From Clostridia bacterium (lineage in GTDB: Bacteria > Bacillota > Clostridia > Oscillospirales > Acutalibacteraceae), in assembly GCA_017382015.1 (NCBI GenBank), contig JAFOBC010000266.1:1-40337 (forward strand): 40,337 nt of DNA, written 5' to 3'. The number at the start of each line of letters is the position of its first letter. Positions within the stretch are counted from its first letter, which is position 1. The notes beneath the pieces were generated by a model. It was not told where the DNA came from. It worked only from the letters and a program-made list of their open reading frames with translations, and searched no databases. The position numbers were made by a program, and so were the translations under genes. Positions 16,080-28,743 of the stretch are shown in pieces.

Positions 16080-19000
16080 ATGGCAAAAAGCGGAAGAGAT
16101 TATGTTACTAAATTCGGGGCGGATAACTCCGGGTTTGTCAAAGGCGTTGATGAGATGATGAGCAAGGTCAGGGATCTGAATAAGTCTCTGACTGAAAACA
16201 AGAAGGCACAGAAGGAAGCGTCCAAGGAAATCAGCGATGCTGAAAAGGAACTGAAAAAGCTGGACAAGGAAATCGCAAAAAGCGGCGAGGCCACCGAGGA
16301 GCAGAAGAAAAAGCGGGAACAGTTAAATGCCGTCATTAAGGACGGCAAGGACAAGCTGGACGCCCTCAGGGTCGTTGAGGGACAGCTGAGAAAGGAAATT
16401 ACTGACACCAACGACAGTATCGGGAAGCAGAAAAAAGCCTATGAACAGCTTACAAGCTCCATCGAGGGGGCTAAGGCCTCGGGGTCTGATCTGGCAAAGG
16501 AGATCGGGGTTATCGGGGCTGCGGCTGCGGCATCTACTGCGGCAATTGTAAAATTCGTGGGGGATGCAGCGGCATGGGCGGACTCAATGAACACCATGCG
16601 GGATGTTACCGGTATATCGACTCAGGATCTGCAAAAATTTGCATATGCCTCTGAGCTTGTGGACGTAAGCATGGAGACAATGACCGGCAGTCTGACGAAG
16701 CTGACCCGAAACATGCAGGGGGCTTTGAATAACAGTTCAGGAACGGCGGCGCAGGCCTTTAAAGCCCTTGACGTTCAGATCGAGGACGGCACCGGTCATC
16801 TGCGGGACAGGCAGCAGGTTTTTTATGAGGTCATTGACGCATTAGGGAAAGTTTCAAACGAAACTGAGCGGGATGCGTTATCAATGAATATCTTCGGCCG
16901 CAGCGCGGAACAGCTTAACCCGCTGATCAAGGGCGGGGCTGAGACGTTGAAACAGTTAGGGGATGAGGCTGAAAAAGCCGGGTTGATTCTGGATCAGAAG
17001 ACCCTGGACAGTCTTCACGGTTTCAATGATGAGATCGATAAGATTAAATCAAAAGGCGGGCAGATCGCTAAGATTGTCGGGGCTGAGGCTTTGCCGGCGG
17101 TGGAAGGCCTGACAGAGGCGGCGGATGATCTGCTGAATGAGGTCAAGCAGATGGCGGACAGCGGAGAACTTTCGGCTATGGCTAAATCTGCCGGACAGCT
17201 CATCAAGCAGGGGGTTACAGACCTTAAGAACCTGGTATCCTGGGTGCTGAAACACAAGGAGGCTGTGGCAGGTGCTGCGGGGGCAATGGTAGGCTTCAAG
17301 GTAGGAATGTCTATCGGGGGGCTTATCAATTCCCTTATGGCCGGTTTTTCGGCTCTGAAGGTTATCACAGACAAGGAAACGGCCTCACAGCTTGCGCTTA
17401 ATACTGCTATGAATACCAATCCCATCGGGGCCGTTATCGGTCTTGTGGGGGCGCTGGTGGGAGGTCTGACGGCACTGACGGCGGCGCAGCAGGCAGCCGC
17501 CGGAGCAATTGACAAGACCAATGAAGCCCTTGACAGCGCCAACGCCGCATATGCTTCTGCGGCGGCTCAGGCAGAGGGCGAAGCCGGTATGCTTGAGGCT
17601 CTGGGGAAAAAATATGACGAGCTGAGGAGCAAGAGCAAGCTGACCGGAGAGGAAAAAACACAGCTTAAGAACATAAGCGAACAGCTTCGCGAAAAGCTCG
17701 GGCTGACGGCGGCTCAGGTGCAGGACGAGGCGGGAAAGTTTCAGGATCTGACAAAGTATATTGACGAGGCTACCGAAGCGCTGAAAAGGCAGGCGCAGGC
17801 TCAGGCGGCGCAGGCGGGGCTTACTGAGGCTATTAAAAAACAGAACGAGGCGGAACTTGCAGTTCAGCAGGCGATAGCAAGGGCAAGAGAAAAGTATCCG
17901 GGACTGTATGACGAGGAAGGCGGTCTCGTACCTGGTCAATGGACTTATGAAAACTCCGATGCAGTGAAAGAAGTCAACGAGCTTATAAAGGCACATTCAG
18001 AAGCAAGCAAGGCTGTGGAGTTCTACGCGGGAAAAGTTGAAGAAGCGGCAACAGCTGAGGGGAAGCTGTCGGATAAGTCAAAAGAAACAGCGGAAGTCCT
18101 GGGGAGCACATCCTCGGGCGCGGCTTATGCCACGGAAGAGATCGAGGAATATTCAAAAAAGCTTCTTGAGGGCAAAGGGAGCCTTGAGGAATTTTACAGC
18201 ATGTTTTTAAACATGGATGACGCTGTAGAATTCCTCAGCGATAAGCTGACGGAAGCTTACAAAGCCCTTGAGGATAACAAGGACAAGCTCTCACAGGCAA
18301 GGCAGGAAAAGAACAAGTATTTAAAAGAGCAGGGCGAAAGCTCAGAGGATTATTTGAAAGCCAAAAATATAGTTTCTGAGCTGGAGACTGAGCAGACAAA
18401 GCTCAGGATCACCGTCAGGAAAGCAAAGGCTGACTATGAGGCGGCGGCTCAGGCGGCGAAGCCTCTCAGTGAGAAACTCGCTGAGCTTGCCAAACAGTCG
18501 GCAAGCCTGAGGGGGGCGCTCTCTGAGCTTGTGGGGCTTTATGACAAGCTTAACGAGGGGCAGAGCCTTGACCTTGACACTCTGCTCAAGCTTTCGGAAA
18601 GCTATCCGGATTATGTCGCGGAGATCATCAGCGCAAACGGAAATATTGAGAAACAGAAAACCGTCATTGAAGCCCTTTACGAGGTCAAAAAGCAGGAGCT
18701 TATCCTCACCCTGCGAAAAGCCCGGGAAGAGATAAACGCAAGCAATGAGGTCACGAGGACAGAGCTTGAAAATGCCAAAAAAAGGCTGCAAACTGCGCGG
18801 TCTCTCTATGCTGTGCATGGCTTGGACAAGTACAAGCAGGAAATTGCTGAGGTTACAAAGGTAATCAGGGAGCTGAACGGAGAGCTGGACAGCGGAAAAA
18901 GCAAGGCGGACGCTTATAACAAAGCCATCGTGACGCTTGAGGGAACGGATATTGCCGACTATAAAACCAGCGGCGGCGGGACTTCCTCGGTTGGCGGGAC

Positions 19001-23971: not shown

Positions 23972-24808
23972 GTGAAGTATGATATCGTGAAGCTGATGGC
24001 GCGGAGGAAGATCCGCTGGAAAAAGAGGTGGGTGTCGGGTGACAGCGGGGGGCGGTTGACTTTCCGGAGCAAAAAGGCGGGGACGCTTGAGAATTACCGT
24101 ATCTACGGAAACACTGTCGGCGGGGAGAGTGTGGGGGATCTGGTGGAAAACGGTGAGCATGCCGGAGAATATGAGGTGTCGGTGACGGTTAGCAATGGTA
24201 CTGATACTCTGACAACTCCCATCTACCTCCCCGAACCGCTCAAAATGGTAGGTAATGACGCTGAATATGTGGATTTTGTGGAACAAAAGCAATATTTCGC
24301 AGATGGAACATCAATAAGTGTCAATCTTCCAACGATTTTTGCTTCGATAGGGATGAACACCATTTGCATTGAAACAAATGTTGTTCCATCTGGTGTCCGT
24401 ATTAAAGGTAAATTTAAAAAAATAACAACTACTTATGTTCAGAGTATTGAGCTGGATAATACAAACAATAAAATTATATTTGTTGTAAGAGCGTATCTTT
24501 CCAAGAATGATAGAATGGTTAGAACCGGTTTAGTCGCTACTAATGACCCAGCAATAGGAGTGAATATTAATGTAAATAGCACTGTGATTACATCTGGCTG
24601 TAAGGTATTTGTAAAAGAACTTGCGGGTGTTACACCGACTACAAATAATACAAAGTACACATGGACAAAAAAAGTTACAGATGGTGAAATTTGGTATGTA
24701 CGTTCTTACGTGGAATATATTAATTCTGATAACGAACAATTGATTATTTACAGTGACGCTGCAAAAGCCTCTCTTGACGGAATAATAAAAACATACACAA
24801 TAACATAA
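23972..24808 (+). CDS. Minor tail-tip structural protein with AT-rich replacement (module copy 2)
   Basis: 278 residues. Residues 30-60 carry SKKAGTLENYRIYGN, as in the gene at 22207. Residues 85-150 carry the repeated module (TTPIYLPEPLKMVGNDAEYV ... NTICIETNVVPSGVRIKGKF). From about 24285 the DNA becomes sharply AT-rich and codes a beta-rich domain (ITTTYVQSIELDNTNNKIIF ... ASLDGIIKTYTIT) with no relative in the window. I read this as a recombinational replacement of the receptor-facing domain. Start GTG 23972 lies behind GAGGTGAAAAGG. Confidence 0.72.
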   Translation: MKYDIVKLMARRKIRWKKRWVSGDSGGRLTFRSKKAGTLENYRIYGNTVGGESVGDLVENGEHAGEYEVSVTVSNGTDTLTTPIYLPEPLKMVGNDAEYVDFVEQKQYFADGTSISVNLPTIFASIGMNTICIETNVVPSGVRIKGKFKKITTTYVQSIELDNTNNKIIFVVRAYLSKNDRMVRTGLVATNDPAIGVNINVNSTVITSGCKVFVKELAGVTPTTNNTKYTWTKKVTDGEIWYVRSYVEYINSDNEQLIIYSDAAKASLDGIIKTYTIT

Positions 24809-24818
24809 TCATGAACAA

Positions 24819-25244
24819 ATGGATATACAGTTTGAGATAGGAAACGATGCTACATCTTACGAACCCTACCACGCTCCCGTAACAACTTCCATCTATCTTC
24901 CCGAGCAGATACGCAAGATCGGAGATGAGGCAGAGTATATTGACTACGGTGAGCAGAAAATGCACAGGATAGGCGCGGATGATATCGACGTAACCCTCCC
25001 CGCACTGCAGACTTTGACGGGAACAAACGTGCTGAGCGTGGGGACGGCGGTGCAGCCGAGCAGAGTGGAGGTCAAAGGCAGGATTAAGGCTGTGGGGCAG
25101 GAGACGGAGCCGGAGCCGGAGGCAGCGGAAGCGGAGCCGGAGGCAGCGGAAGCGGAGCCGGAGACAGCGGAAGCGGAGCCGGAATAGGAAGAGCCGGAGC
25201 AGGAAGAGCCGGAAGTTAAGGAGGATGATACAGATGACAGATAG
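24819..25244 (+). pseudogene. Tail-tip protein remnant (module copy 3) with in-frame TAG
   Basis: Reads DIQFEIGNDATSYEPYHAPV, then the module TTSIYLPEQIRKIGDEAEYI ... NVLSVGTAVQPSRVEVKGRI and a Glu-Pro-Ala 7-residue repeat. This normally forms the C-terminal part of a longer protein; here it has no proper start (no binding site before ATG 24819) and lies in another frame than the gene before it. A TAG at 25185-25187 interrupts the acidic repeat. The frame then stays open with the same composition (EEPEQEEPEVKEDDTDDR) to a natural stop at 25244. Both ends look broken, so this is probably the orphaned tail of the ancestral gene. Confidence 0.65.
25105..25180 (+). repeat. 21-bp tandem repeat in tail-tip remnant
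   Basis: The unit GCGGAAGCGGAGCCGGAGGC-A recurs about three times with one substitution, coding EPEAAEA heptads. The next register of the same DNA is a clean Gly-Ser-Ala linker, a by-product of the purine-rich repeat. Confidence 0.8.
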
Positions 25245-26193
25245 GGAAAAAGTTTTACAGACTGCGCGCGGGTACATAGGTAAGTCTGGGTATGACGTGT
25301 GCATTAAAAAATTAAGACTGGGATGTGTCGTGGACTGGTGTGCCTATAGTATCTCAGCGATCATGAGGGACTGCGGATTCATCGGGAAGTATCAGGGGGG
25401 CATTTACGGGTTCGCCTCTGATGCTGCGCGTGAGGACAGCGGGAAGCTGGGAACGTGGTTCAAAAAGGGTGAGAAAACGCCGCAGCCGGGGGATTACATA
25501 ATGTTCCGGTATTCGTCTTTTCTCAACCCGATCGACAAATACAGCGCGAGCCATGTCGGACTGGTTGAGGCGGTTAACGGGAACACTTTAACGACGCTTG
25601 AGGGTAATGTCGACGGTTGGGGAGCTGACTGGGCGGGGACGTCCAGTTACAAACGAAAAACCAGGTACCTGTCCAGCTCTGATGTTTACGCCTTCTATCG
25701 TCCGAACTGGCAGGGGGAGAAGCAGCAGAGCACGTCCTCAGGCAGCGCGGGAGCTATCACTGCGGGGGGATCCGGGATTGATGTTATATATCAGGTGCAC
25801 ACCATCGGCGGAAAATGGCTGCCGAATGTTACCAATACGAGCGATTTTGCGGGGTTGGAAGGTAAAAAAATTGACGGAATCAGGGCGATGACGTCAAAGT
25901 ACCATATCAGGTATCGCGTCAGGTTATGGGGAAAAAAGAACTATGAACCATGGGTTACTGACCGCAGCGGGTTTGCTGGTAAGTATAACTATGCGATTGA
26001 CCGGGTGCAGATGGAGTTCTATGGGGATGATAACGTTTCTAAGTATGCGGTAGAATATAGGGTTTCTACTATGGAGAGTAAGGGCTATCTGGACTGGGTT
26101 CGAGGTTACAATCTTAAAAATGATGACGGATATGCAGGTATCGACAAGAAGTGCATTGATAAACTGCAGATCAGGATTGTAAAGAAAAAGTAA
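25234..26193 (+). CDS. Endolysin: CHAP amidase/endopeptidase with C-terminal wall-binding repeats
   Basis: Cuts host peptidoglycan at lysis. 319 residues. The CHAP/NlpC-P60-type domain (1-160) has catalytic Cys in VDWCAYS (C36), His in SASHVGLVE (H107) and the polar third residue in the LEGNVDGWG region. After a Ser/Gly linker (about 165-182), two to three repeats of the type GGKWLPNV...FAGLEGKKIDGI and WGKKNYEPWV...FAGKYNYAIDRV resemble clostridial cell-wall-binding repeats. There is no signal peptide, so it depends on the holin. ATG 25234 lies 9 nt after GGAGG. Confidence 0.92.
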   Translation: MTDREKVLQTARGYIGKSGYDVCIKKLRLGCVVDWCAYSISAIMRDCGFIGKYQGGIYGFASDAAREDSGKLGTWFKKGEKTPQPGDYIMFRYSSFLNPIDKYSASHVGLVEAVNGNTLTTLEGNVDGWGADWAGTSSYKRKTRYLSSSDVYAFYRPNWQGEKQQSTSSGSAGAITAGGSGIDVIYQVHTIGGKWLPNVTNTSDFAGLEGKKIDGIRAMTSKYHIRYRVRLWGKKNYEPWVTDRSGFAGKYNYAIDRVQMEFYGDDNVSKYAVEYRVSTMESKGYLDWVRGYNLKNDDGYAGIDKKCIDKLQIRIVKKK

Positions 26194-26201
26194 ATAATAC
26201 G

Positions 26202-26238
26202 GAGCCTGTCGGGAGTGATCCTGGCAGGCTCTTTTTTT
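26202..26238 (+). terminator. Strong intrinsic terminator after the endolysin
   Basis: GAGCCTGTC (26202-26210) pairs with GGCAGGCTC (26223-26231), followed by TTTTTTT (26232-26238). It ends the late transcript and insulates the accessory operon beginning at 26306. Confidence 0.92.
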
Positions 26239-26290
26239 GTTGGAAATATACAAAAAGTGGGGCGGATGTTTGGTGGGGGAATTAATAGAA

Positions 26291-26320
26291 TTTGGCTAAA
26301 CTCTATTGACTTTAGCCGAA
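26291..26320 (+). promoter_or_regulatory. Operator-like inverted repeat over the accessory promoter
   Basis: TTTGGCTAAA (26291-26300) and TTTAGCCGAA (26311-26320) are inverted copies matching at 9 of 10 positions, with arm starts 20 bp apart (two helical turns). The right arm covers the end of the -35 box, so a protein bound here would block RNA polymerase. The ribbon-helix-helix protein at the end of the same operon is the obvious candidate. Confidence 0.7.
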
Positions 26321-26334
26321 CTAAGTAGTATAAT
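26306..26334 (+). promoter_or_regulatory. Consensus sigma-A promoter of the accessory operon
   Basis: TTGACT (26306-26311), a 17-bp spacer and a perfect TATAAT (26329-26334), just after the late terminator. It is among the closest matches to consensus in the window and should be active in the lysogen without phage factors. Transcription would begin near 26341. Confidence 0.88.
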
Positions 26335-26380
26335 AAATACAACAAAGAAACAACAGCCCACAGGGCAGGAGGTAACAATT

Positions 26381-26560
26381 ATGAAATACACAGTTGACGG
26401 ACGCAAAGTTACAGCAAGAAAAGCAAGAAGAATTGAAAAGAAAAATCAGCAGATACTTGATGAAGTTATGAATGGCGGCGACTTCTCAAAATTGTTAAAC
26501 ATAGAATTTCTTTTCGGAGAAGAAGTCGAAAAGGCTTGCATAGCAATTAAAGAACAATAA
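26381..26560 (+). CDS. Small basic hypothetical protein, first cistron of accessory operon
   Basis: 59 residues beginning MKYTVDGRKVTARKARRIEK, strongly basic in the first half and acidic at the end (FGEEVEKACIAIKEQ). GGAGGTAACAATT directly precedes the ATG, an excellent site. No domain recognised; the basic helix could contact nucleic acid. The stop codon is immediately followed by the first base of the hammerhead ribozyme, so self-cleavage would leave this cistron with the ribozyme as its 3' end. Confidence 0.75.
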   Translation: MKYTVDGRKVTARKARRIEKKNQQILDEVMNGGDFSKLLNIEFLFGEEVEKACIAIKEQ

Positions 26561-26615
26561 CCCAACTGATGAGAGCTGGACAGCAACCAGCCGAAACCCC
26601 GAAAGGGGTCTTGGG
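26561..26615 (+). ncRNA. Type I hammerhead ribozyme
   Basis: All conserved parts are present in order. Stem I strand is CCCAA (26561-26565), core CUGAUGA (26566-26572). Stem II is GAGCUGG / CCAGCC (26573-26579, 26587-26592) with one bulged A and loop ACAGCAA. Core GAAA is 26593-26596. Stem III is CCCC / GGGG (26597-26608) capped by a GAAA tetraloop. The A-U pair closing stem III leads to the GUC cleavage triplet ending at C26610. Stem I strand UUGGG (26611-26615) is fully complementary to CCCAA. Both ends exit from stem I, hence type I. Predicted cut: between 26610 and 26611, giving a 2',3'-cyclic phosphate on the upstream RNA and a 5'-OH on the downstream mRNA. Confidence 0.95.
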
Positions 26616-26658
26616 GAGCCGAAACATCCCGAAAAAATACAAAGAGGAGGTCATCACT

Positions 26659-26883
26659 ATGACAAACATTAATTATTACAATTACAAAGAACTCAGAGAG
26701 AAGGCGCTGAGCGCTGACGCTACTCAGGAGGACATTAACAGCTTGGGAGAATGGTTTGAGCAGTACGGAGACGAGTACTGGAACGGCGAATACTATAACG
26801 CTGATGATGGTGTCAGGGTTTATCCCATCGTTAAAGAGGTTGACGAGGACGAGTATGAGACGGTTGGATATGAGATCAGATAG
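26659..26883 (+). CDS. Small acidic protein, second cistron of accessory operon
   Basis: 74 residues, very acidic (about a third Asp/Glu), with YNYKELREKALSADATQEDI, EWFEQYGDEYWNG and KEVDEDEYETVGYEIR. This family is common in Clostridia phages and plasmids without known function. The charge pattern would fit a DNA-mimicking or basic-partner-binding protein, which is only a guess. AGGAGG lies 8 nt before the ATG, in the 5' end generated by the ribozyme, so its mRNA would start with UUGGGGAGCC after cleavage. Confidence 0.8.
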   Translation: MTNINYYNYKELREKALSADATQEDINSLGEWFEQYGDEYWNGEYYNADDGVRVYPIVKEVDEDEYETVGYEIR

Positions 26884-26895
26884 GAGGACATTAAC

Positions 26896-27330
26896 ATGAA
26901 AAAAGTGATTAAAGGCAAGCTGTACGACACCGAAACAGCGCGAAGGATTGACACGGTCAGCGGTGGGGCGGAGTTTAGAACAGATTTTCACTACTGGGAG
27001 GAAACGCTATACTGCAAGAAGACCGGGGAATATTTCCTTCACTGTGCGGGCGGGGCGGCGAGCCAGTACGCTGAAAAGGTGGGAAGCATGACCGGATGGG
27101 GGGAGAGGATCAAGCCTCTCTCCTATGATGAAGCACAGCAATGGGCTGAGAAATATCTGGACGGGGATCAGCTGATCGCGGAGTTCGGGGAGCCGGTGGA
27201 GGATGTGAGTAAGGTGCAGCTGCATGTCAATCTTCGCAAGGGGAATGTCGAGAAAATTAAGCTCCGGGCGCAGAAGATGGGGGTGTCGGTTTCGGAACTG
27301 GTTGACAGAATGATTAAAGCGATGGAATGA
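26896..27330 (+). CDS. Ribbon-helix-helix protein, third cistron of accessory operon
   Basis: 144 residues. The N-terminal 95 residues (KVIKGKLYDTETARRIDTVS, FHYWEETLYCKKTGEYFLHC, PLSYDEAQQWAEKYL) form a domain frequent on Firmicutes mobile elements, role unknown. The last 38 residues (VQLHVNLRKGNVEKIKLRAQ, then SVSELVDRMIKAM) look like an Arc/CopG ribbon-helix-helix DNA-binding unit: one beta strand and two helices. GGAGG lies 8 nt before the ATG. A role as autorepressor acting on the inverted repeat at 26291-26320 is a reasonable inference. Confidence 0.78.
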   Translation: MKKVIKGKLYDTETARRIDTVSGGAEFRTDFHYWEETLYCKKTGEYFLHCAGGAASQYAEKVGSMTGWGERIKPLSYDEAQQWAEKYLDGDQLIAEFGEPVEDVSKVQLHVNLRKGNVEKIKLRAQKMGVSVSELVDRMIKAME

Positions 27331-27334
27331 AAGG

Positions 27335-27358
27335 GAGCCGCTCCGGTGGGGGCGGCTC
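27335..27358 (+). terminator. Stem-loop ending the accessory operon
   Basis: GAGCCGC (27335-27341) pairs with GCGGCTC (27352-27358), followed by TATAATTTTA. The stem is perfect over 7 bp but the U-tract is interrupted, so termination may be partial. Confidence 0.65.
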
Positions 27359-27364
27359 TATAAT

Positions 27365-27594
27365 TTTACACACAATTTTACACACAATGGGGGGATTTTA
27401 CAAGGGGTTGAGAGGCGGTGAAAGTGGCTTTGAATGCGTGGTTTGGGGAGGTGACAAGGGGAGAGGTTTTGACATGAAGGCAAACTGTCTGGGGGCTGAA
27501 TTTTCGGTGAGCGAGGTGAGAACCCGCTTCTGATGCCGGTTTTCAGAAACAGGGGGCTTGGTGTTTTTTTAATTACACACAATTTACACACAAT
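27365..27594 (+). other. Probable attP region with paired arm-type repeats
   Basis: The 12-mer TTTACACACAAT occurs twice in tandem at 27365-27388. A second pair lies at 27572-27594 (first copy ATTACACACAAT), in the same orientation and directly after the integrase stop. The pairs flank about 183 bp of otherwise noncoding DNA. Two doublets of short direct repeats around a core next to int are the layout of arm sites for integrases with an AP2-like arm-binding domain, which this integrase has. The crossover core itself cannot be identified without the host attB. No convincing gene lies in 27331-27597. Confidence 0.65.
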
Positions 27595-27597
27595 AAT

Positions 27598-28743
27598 TTA
27601 CTTTCTCAATTTTGACATTTCACCTATAAGCTCGGAAATGTCTTTATGGATGTAAATGTCGGCGGTCGTGGCGTAGTCTGCGTGGCCGATGATTTTCTGG
27701 AGATTTTCAGGGCGCATTCCGGCGGAGGCTGATAGGCTGGCAAAGGTGTGGCGGGTGCTATGGGGGGTCAGATGGTTTTTATCAGGGAATATCCATATCT
27801 TTCCTGTACCAGGTTTAACCCTGCCATTTATCATTCCCAGCTCTGACAGCGGCTGATAAAAATATTGATGCCGGAATTTTCCTTCTGCTACGGGGAAGAG
27901 CGGGCTGCCGTTTGGTGTCTTGGATATCCACTGGCGAAAAAAGTCTCTGATCTCGGGGATGGATGCCGGGAATGGAATTATTCTATCGGTGCCCGCTTCC
28001 GTCTTAATTCCTCCGATAACATAGCCCTCCTCGAGGTGAATGTTTTCGGGAGTCAGGGTGATGATCTCTCCGAGGCGGAATCCCATGTAAATCATCGACA
28101 GAATAATCTGTATTCTTTCATCATCTGTGTGCTGCCACAGCTTATTGATCTGATCTTTAGTAAAAATAACTTTTTTGGTTTTATCGAATTTCGGGATCCT
28201 GACGAATTCTGCATAGTTTTTATCTACGATATCATTTTCCAGGGCAAAGCGGCAGAGCATCAGGGCTAAGGATTTAAGCTTCGCCGCAGAGGATTTTGAG
28301 GTGGCCTCATTAACGAACGGCTGAAAGTGCGCTGCGCGGATGTCGGTCATGCGGACGCTGTGAATCGGGGCCATTCGTTTCCACATGGAAATCCAGACTG
28401 CCGGATTCTTGATCCGCTTATAGTGAATGTCAGACCACATTTTATAGATATCCTCGAGTGTCGCTCCATAGAGTTCTGGTCTTCCGTGTTTAATAAAGTC
28501 ATCGAGGGCTTCCTGCGCTGATTTCAGATCCGGGTAAGAGCCGATATAGACGCGTCCCGCTCCGTGAGAGGACGCGGGGGCAATGGCAATGTAAGGGCTT
28601 TTATAACGGGTGTCTTTTCTGATTGTGCCTGTGCCGTGAGCGCGTTTCCGGTGCTTTGATTTTGTCGTGGACTGCTTTTTTCCGCAGAAGTTGCAGAAGA
28701 CGGATCCGTCTGGTATTCTTTTTTTGCATTTTTTACACAACAT
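27598..28743 (-). CDS. int: Tyrosine site-specific integrase with N-terminal zinc ribbon
   Basis: 381 residues. Residues 1-21 form a zinc ribbon (C3-x2-C6, C17-x2-C20). Residues 38-85 form an AP2-like arm-binding domain (GTGTIRKDTRYKSPYIAIAP, YPDLKSAQEALDDF). Residues 92-180 form the core-binding SAM-like domain. The catalytic domain holds R223, K247, H328-x2-R331, H354 and the nucleophile Y364, so it is complete. The start is preceded by AAGGAGCTG, which can be paired in a hairpin (28751-28779). The gene stops at the arm repeats of attP. Probably cotranscribed in part with the repressor and lipoprotein genes. Confidence 0.96.
   Translation of the reverse strand: MLCKKCKKRIPDGSVFCNFCGKKQSTTKSKHRKRAHGTGTIRKDTRYKSPYIAIAPASSHGAGRVYIGSYPDLKSAQEALDDFIKHGRPELYGATLEDIYKMWSDIHYKRIKNPAVWISMWKRMAPIHSVRMTDIRAAHFQPFVNEATSKSSAAKLKSLALMLCRFALENDIVDKNYAEFVRIPKFDKTKKVIFTKDQINKLWQHTDDERIQIILSMIYMGFRLGEIITLTPENIHLEEGYVIGGIKTEAGTDRIIPFPASIPEIRDFFRQWISKTPNGSPLFPVAEGKFRHQYFYQPLSELGMINGRVKPGTGKIWIFPDKNHLTPHSTRHTFASLSASAGMRPENLQKIIGHADYATTADIYIHKDISELIGEMSKLRK

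Follow-up and report, generated by a model that had tools for sequence, protein, structure and literature searches.

Does a phage sequence with the outline of a type I hammerhead ribozyme, placed between two small genes, encode a genuine ribozyme, and what would its cleavage do there? The function of prokaryotic hammerheads is called an open question in the part of PMC6155905 consulted. The window analysed here is a whole contig of 40,337 bases (C237), taken from a 2.7 Mb draft genome in 399 contigs. Its structural genes include terminase, portal, major head, tape measure, distal and minor tail proteins, and endolysin, and beyond the endolysin lie a minus-strand integrase, a CI-like S24 repressor, a helicase and a primase. 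The contig, which lacks host flanks, is a temperate phage judged by its gene content; its terminase was at most 41% identical to the best 12 of 1916 matching phage records. A small unit sits between the endolysin gene (ending at 26193) and the integrase gene (27598-28743). It consists, in order, of a terminator-like hairpin, a promoter match, orf1, the ribozyme, orf2, orf3 and a second terminator-like hairpin:

26201-26232, plus strand: intrinsic terminator-like hairpin after the endolysin gene, 14 pairs, 8 of them GC, then TTTTTTGTTG
26306-26334, plus strand: strong sigma70-like promoter match TTGACT-17-TATAAT ahead of orf1, 11 of 12 consensus positions
26381-26560, plus strand: orf1, 59 amino acids, function unassigned; its stop TAA (26558-26560) abuts the ribozyme
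26561-26615, plus strand: type I hammerhead ribozyme, found by direct reading, covariance model and full descriptor
26616-26622, plus strand: 3' tail of the ribozyme, with GCCG (26618-26621) in pairing register with loop II
26659-26883, plus strand: orf2, 74 amino acids, rich in D and E; AGGAGG (26645-26650) lies ahead of its ATG
26896-27330, plus strand: orf3, 144 amino acids, with a weak DUF6364 match at residues 109-138
27334-27359, plus strand: terminator-like hairpin behind orf3, 11 pairs, 8 of them GC, with a weak T tail

The putative promoter and terminators are consensus matches and not proof; a scan of 24700-27700 gave 4 terminator-like sites against 2.2 expected and 9 promoter-like sites against 3.5.

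The ribozyme was read directly from the letters. Its transcript begins with CCCAA (26561-26565) and the catalytic core CUGAUGA (26566-26572), continues with G(A)GCUGG (26573-26579), loop II (ACAGCAA, 26580-26586), CCAGCC (26587-26592) and the second core strand GAAA (26593-26596), and ends with CCCC (26597-26600), a GAAA loop (26601-26604), GGGG (26605-26608), UC and UUGGG (26611-26615). Stem I (CCCAA with UUGGG) has five pairs and an open end. Stem II has six pairs (G26573 and GCUGG 26575-26579, with CCAGC 26587-26591 and C26592) and one bulged A (26574), and stem III has five (26596-26600 with 26605-26609), in which the last A of the core GAAA (26596) pairs with U26609. C17 falls at 26610, and cleavage is predicted between 26610 and 26611. 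All helical positions of the three stems are paired, and the order CUGANGA, GAAA and U-H at the cleavage site, with stem I open and stems II and III closed by loops, is that of type I. For the 56 bases 26560-26615, the computed energy of the ribozyme fold lies no more than 0.1 kcal/mol above the minimum. The full descriptor (core, three stems and cleavage site) matched once in the window and in none of 600 dinucleotide-preserving shuffled strands. A loose core pattern matched three times against 0.18 expected; the other two matches overlap on the minus strand (18570-18631) and do not satisfy the full descriptor. Everything that a preliminary description had listed (CUGAUGA, GAAA, the cleavage triplet and three complementary stems) is present. 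The bulged A and the 3' tail able to pair with loop II were absent from that description. Its label 'textbook' does not quite fit the bulged A, a one-base bulge parsed on the 5' side of stem II in 17 of 101 sequences with a CCAA/UUGG stem I (window included), or the want of an Rfam match at cut-off. From its sequence, we regard a genuine hammerhead at 26561-26615 as close to certain.

A covariance model, R1, was built from 33 relatives in viral contigs with the window excluded. R1 matched the ribozyme at 65 bits (E 3.9e-12), the runner-up in the window scoring 13.1 bits (E 0.86), and gave a near-equal 63.8 bits to L005, another relative outside its training set. Rfam at gathering cut-offs matched nothing anywhere in the window. 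When an E-value threshold was used instead for 26450-26750, the sole match was RAGATH-1-hammerhead (RF03152), at 25.3 bits against a cut-off of 56.3; it covers the same bases and core, but in the window none of the four pairs of the model's upstream hairpin is intact. Searches of the window's own genome with Hammerhead_1 (RF00163, cut-off 34 bits, which we take to be the type I topology) at E 10, and with Hammerhead_II, did not list the site. The Rfam cut-offs also gave no match for any of the 24 other type I loci tried, a set of 14 and a set of 10 (L342, L347, L431, L463, L368, L422, L479, L212, L213 and L352, two of them from one contig), and the missing match in the window is therefore read as a gap in the library. 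In the remaining 3 of 13 loci, from Streptomyces phages, Rfam finds 11 type II hammerheads. Thus the covariance-model check proposed in the preliminary description failed with Rfam at its gathering cut-offs and succeeded with R1.

Relatives were collected with sequence patterns. A pattern close to the window found 7 viral contigs; in six, the stems, loop and tail are closely similar. When only the CCAA/UUGG stem I was kept, with stem II, loop and bulge free, at least 120 stretches of viral contigs matched; in the genomes of 84,980 species the same pattern matched two contigs (L125 and L126), in which stem III barely pairs, with one pair each. At least 120 viral-contig stretches were also found for each of three further patterns: other stem I pairs, other stem I pairs with a pseudoknot-like tail, and CCGC-CUGACGA. 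The preliminary description had hammerheads occurring sporadically in bacterial and phage genomes, which understates how common type I is in viral contigs. We sorted the relatives into four groups, whose names are our own. Group A comprises ribozymes with a tail pseudoknot and includes the window copy. Group B, with L033, L041, L091 and L109 among its members, is marked by UGAGAUU in or around loop II; often an additional hairpin follows stem I, perhaps making another tertiary contact or capping the new 5' end. Group C, a large one in L127-L244 (e.g. L131 1185-1238, L212 and L129), has stem I GGUUAA/UUAACC and variants with co-changing pairs, a short stem II, usually of four pairs, and a loop of the kind UUAAU or UCAAU; the UAA that ends the 5' strand of its stem I can itself serve as a stop codon. 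Group D (e.g. L431, L463, L422 and L368) combines a CCGC/GCGG stem I with the core CUGACGA, and a one-base bulge at the junction of stem II and core was parsed in 56 of 135.

The ribozyme is unlikely to be a feature of the host lineage, as R1 copies are scarce there. No second copy was found in the window's own assembly. Under filters strict enough to lose weak matches, the family (149 other genomes, E 0.01) gave one type I copy, L347, at 32.4 bits, and the class (390 others, E 0.001) gave three. Among named phages, blastn with the window ribozyme gave 30 records, of which the 4 examined were one type I and three type II; one group A relative gave a single 19-base match, and one group C relative 20 records, R1 matching two of the 3 examined. 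The kind is thus common in viral contigs and seldom recovered from named phages by blastn.

Conservation of the ribozyme together with its flanking genes was rejected. PHROG and Pfam searches gave no family match for orf1 or orf2; no relatives of orf1 were found in viral contigs or in 147 other genomes, and a search for relatives of orf2 found none. Matches to orf3 numbered 15, in 14 of the 147 other genomes, and 11 fetched orf3-relative loci had no R1 match at E 0.1. The DUF6364 match of orf3 (E 0.0086, 17 bits against a cut-off of 27.3) lies near its end, whereas its relatives mostly cover its first part. With flanking genes that have few relatives or none, selection on the window copy of the ribozyme cannot be demonstrated.

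Across the 33 group A members 95.7% of cells pair, with changes on both sides at 17 of 21 pairs. The covariation score was 0.431, against 0.157 when shuffled and at most 0.075 when slid, a result that leans toward the structure because pairing stems and an exact pseudoknot match were conditions for including a row. Paired stem changes also occur in other relatives, including stem I of group C, where rows were again partly selected. The covariation in related phages that had been suggested as a check was thus found, in groups A and C.

In the relatives, loop II is complementary, in a fixed register, to the bases immediately behind stem I, which is read as a tail pseudoknot. Tail bases 4-7 have an exact complement in stem-loop II of 62 of 101 distinct CCAA/UUGG-pattern ribozymes, a set chosen irrespective of tail that includes the window, L125 and L126; in 1000 permutations of the tails, which ignore the relatedness of the sequences, the mean was 24.4 and the maximum 35. 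For group D, the test was limited to ribozymes with three or more pairs in stem II and two or more in stem III, 114 of the 135 distinct ones. Of these, 69 had a three-base match in that register (permuted mean 21.5, maximum 36) and 28 a four-base match (mean 7.2, maximum 21), relatedness again being ignored. An exact tail match is missing in 39 of the 101, the window among them, and in 45 of the 114. In the window CAGC (26581-26584, loop II) faces GCCG (26618-26621), with three of four pairs and one A.C mismatch. The preliminary description had suggested that tertiary loop contacts may be weak or lie outside the core, and the contact is most likely this pseudoknot of loop II and 3' tail, imperfect here by one pair. 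For a type II hammerhead, shortening the pseudoknot is reported in the consulted part of PMC3088659 to cost about 20-fold, and then more than 100-fold.

A hairpin UUGG-NNNN-CCAA at the new downstream 5' end was considered as a switch and is not supported as a conserved feature. Its four pairs are present in 32 of 36 UUGG members, and possible in the window, but in none of 15 members with another stem I, and they covary no more than shuffles. The 51 members were picked for an exact pseudoknot match, and the scan for other stems fixed a purine-purine-pyrimidine-pyrimidine-A tail with no G at the third stem base, so that the test is partly biased. With stem UUAG the scan still permitted a hairpin of this type, yet none of 7 has it.

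The position of the ribozyme relative to genes was then compared with that of its relatives. In the window the stop of orf1 ends 5 nt before the core and the orf2 ATG lies 48 nt after the cleavage site; TAA at 26558-26560 and ATG at 26659 agree with the earlier statement that the motif starts directly after one stop codon and ahead of the next start. Without L125 and L126, groups A-C gave 285 distinct sites, and the flank was long enough at 248. An upstream stop was counted where an open frame of at least 60 codons ended between -200 and +20 of the core, and a downstream start where a frame of at least 40 codons began within 120 nt; genes were called as plain open frames, and some loci belong to phages related to one another. 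An upstream stop was found at 236 of 248 sites, with its end at a median of 5 nt before the core, and 12 had none in range. The commonest ends were +4 (48 sites, the TGA of CUGA), 0 (42), -5 (37) and -6 (25). A downstream start was found at 239 of 248, at a median of 25 nt after cleavage, with ATG at 192 and a Shine-Dalgarno-like sequence at 123. On the opposite strand stops were found at 116 and starts at 119 of 249 sites (median stop -73.5, ATG 23, Shine-Dalgarno 5), and three random same-strand sets of 285 gave 143-166 stops and 187-199 starts (median stop -71 to -102, ATG 79-91, Shine-Dalgarno 29-32). A same-strand frame of at least 100 codons encloses 30 of 248 ribozymes, against 105-113 of 285 random places. 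Group D behaved alike: of 100 sites with flank, 96 had a stop (49 at +4) and 93 a start, at a median of 38 nt after cleavage, against 77 stops with a median of -84 for the antisense control. For both sets together, the stop overlaps the ribozyme or is at most 2 nt away at 259 of 348 sites, and at most 10 nt away at 287, and the TGA of the core CUGA is itself the stop at 97 (48 of 248 and 49 of 100). At the 299 sites with both neighbours and free spacer, the share of the spacer on the upstream side has a median of 0 and a mean of 0.11.

A shift test was made with 229 of 399 sites that have 1.4 kb of flank on both sides, using eight shifts of 200-900 nt. A stop ending from -12 to +4 of the core was found at 178 of 229 sites, against 6-18 at shifted places; counting only stops outside the core (-12 to -4), the figures were 83 and 1-10, and for stop and ATG together 148 and 1-7. 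The +4 class alone would prove little, since any frame reading into the core in one of the three phases is bound to stop at its TGA. The core does not impose the -5 and -6 classes, and the group C TAA at 0 is part of stem I. A literature search, judged by title among the papers listed, found no published description of stop-codon anchoring of hammerheads, and the words 'stop codon' do not occur in the main text of PMC3088659.

Some of the ribozymes are clustered. Two or more were found on 41 of 229 locus strands in groups A-C, and L212 has four, at or behind frames ending at 1263, 1631, 1880 and 2913. L431 and L463, neighbouring stretches of one contig, carry four and five in about 6.6 kb. A row of three (50.8, 26.3 and 43.2 bits) occurs in Christensenellales phage IMGVR 15666929; the annotated stop is the core TGA in two of them (locus positions 1919 and 2487) and lies 30 nt ahead of the core in the first. 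Streptomyces phage Janus carries five type II hammerheads (RF02276, above cut-off) in 5 of 7 annotated gene gaps over 3 kb (L343 290-352, 777-857, 1507-1569, 2166-2231 and 2882-2944; also L344 and L345). These lie 15-18 nt before the next start and 0, 270, 17, 4 and 47 nt behind the previous stop. Janus thus resembles the set described here in gap placement ahead of a start, and differs in circular permutation and in its upstream stop distance of 0-270 nt. The Janus record names a host strain, which maybe makes it usable as a test system. In Flavobacterium phage elemoC (L349 1462-1569) a predicted minus-strand gene, perhaps miscalled, covers a plus-strand type I hammerhead match (26.3 bits, 1497-1562).

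Similar ribozymes have been described. In the consulted part of Perreault et al. 2011 (PMC3088659), prophage hammerheads are intergenic, often near integrase genes and often clustered around single genes; pseudoknots are given for all three hammerhead types, and processing into shorter mRNAs is named as a possible role. Tandem prophage hammerheads cleave in vitro and those of A. tumefaciens cleave in E. coli, while 4 of 18 consensus hammerheads tested failed to cleave (PMC3088659, same part). Compared by text, these prophage hammerheads are like the present ones in being intergenic, phage-borne and pseudoknotted, whereas placement at stop codons is absent from that account. The haloviruses HF1 and HF2 have a hammerhead variant 13 nt upstream of a start codon, with a mapped transcript 5' end at most 3 nt from its cleavage site (PMC3088659, same part); like the window ribozyme it lies just upstream of a start in a viral operon, unlike it in having a variant catalytic core and an archaeal virus as carrier.

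Our preferred explanation, which we consider probable, is that a temperate phage carries here a small accessory operon whose transcript is cut between orf1 and orf2 by a self-cleaving type I hammerhead. The preliminary claim of a type I hammerhead between two phage cistrons is backed by the anatomy, the window-free model, the covariation and the geometry of stop, ribozyme and start. Cleavage in the cell is likely, and from a placement shared with hundreds of relatives the parting of two messages is the best reading of its role. The ribozyme would fold and cleave during transcription, between C26610 and U26611, with the pseudoknot of loop II and 3' tail replacing the loop contact that fast hammerheads require. 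The orf1 message would then extend only just past its stop, closing with the folded stems II and III and a 2',3'-cyclic phosphate, and the orf2-orf3 message would gain a new short leader with a 5'-OH. Separate fates for the two mRNAs, as proposed in the preliminary description, are the best explanation of such a cut: the pieces would be translated and degraded independently, so that one promoter would yield two messages with separate lifetimes and no translational coupling. As the window pseudoknot is one pair short, the ribozyme may cleave more slowly than its relatives. Several observations speak against this explanation: the A.C mismatch, a competing fold with the downstream leader, the Rfam scores below cut-off, the published consensus hammerheads that did not cleave, and those relatives that sit within long open frames, have no upstream stop in range or lack the exact tail match.

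An ordinary hairpin element (terminator, attenuator or nuclease site) that merely resembles a hammerhead would also place two stable hairpins between genes, and a terminator-like match does occur on the minus strand (26581-26560). A terminator at the ribozyme site was rejected because there is no plus-strand match there, and any such element would leave the invariant core and the covarying stems of the relatives without a reason; with the full descriptor present in none of 600 shuffled strands, this reading is highly improbable. Descent from an active phage hammerhead that is now inactive, or too slow to matter in the cell, is a less remote reading, though still an unlikely one. The A.C mismatch in the four-pair pseudoknot and the finding of a sole copy in its own assembly fit decay, as does a competing fold: with the downstream leader included, the core pairs with UCAUCA (26651-26656) 5.8 kcal/mol better than in the ribozyme fold computed without tertiary contacts, or 3.8 kcal/mol better with all of orf1 included. 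Random decay should also strike the core and the three stems, however, and these have no mismatch; the R1 score is about that of L005. UCAUCA, beside the orf2 start codon, was considered as an off-switch and rejected. Such a switch is possible in the window, but pairing of this type is not enriched in relatives (7 of 279 against 5.2 expected).

A refinement compatible with cleavage between orf1 and orf2 is that translation gates the cut. A ribosome at a stop codon shields about a dozen nt beyond it, and one terminating on orf1 would cover stem I and the core. Tentatively, the phage hammerheads might then be translation-gated cutters, with the stop in or against the core and the terminating ribosome keeping the ribozyme unfolded. 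The excess of stops at -12 to +4, the use of the core TGA as a stop and the near absence of spacer on the upstream side are consistent with this. On the other hand, tight packing of phage genes and room for a Shine-Dalgarno sequence favour the same placement, the Janus ribozymes are not all near an upstream stop, and the ribozyme may fold ahead of the ribosome's arrival, so that we give gating only a modest chance, for the window as for the relatives. If it is true, cutting would be confined to messages whose upstream gene is not being translated to its end, and the mRNA end of every gene in an operon would be set by that gene's own translation.

The window ribozyme is one of many type I hammerheads in phages, a kind already known, of which Rfam's present cut-offs miss all the type I loci tried. 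The stop and start geometry holds across type I groups that differ in stems, loops and a core base, which argues that these ribozymes are cutters between genes. With this placement rule, and with named phages that bear hammerheads, the old question of their function becomes testable.
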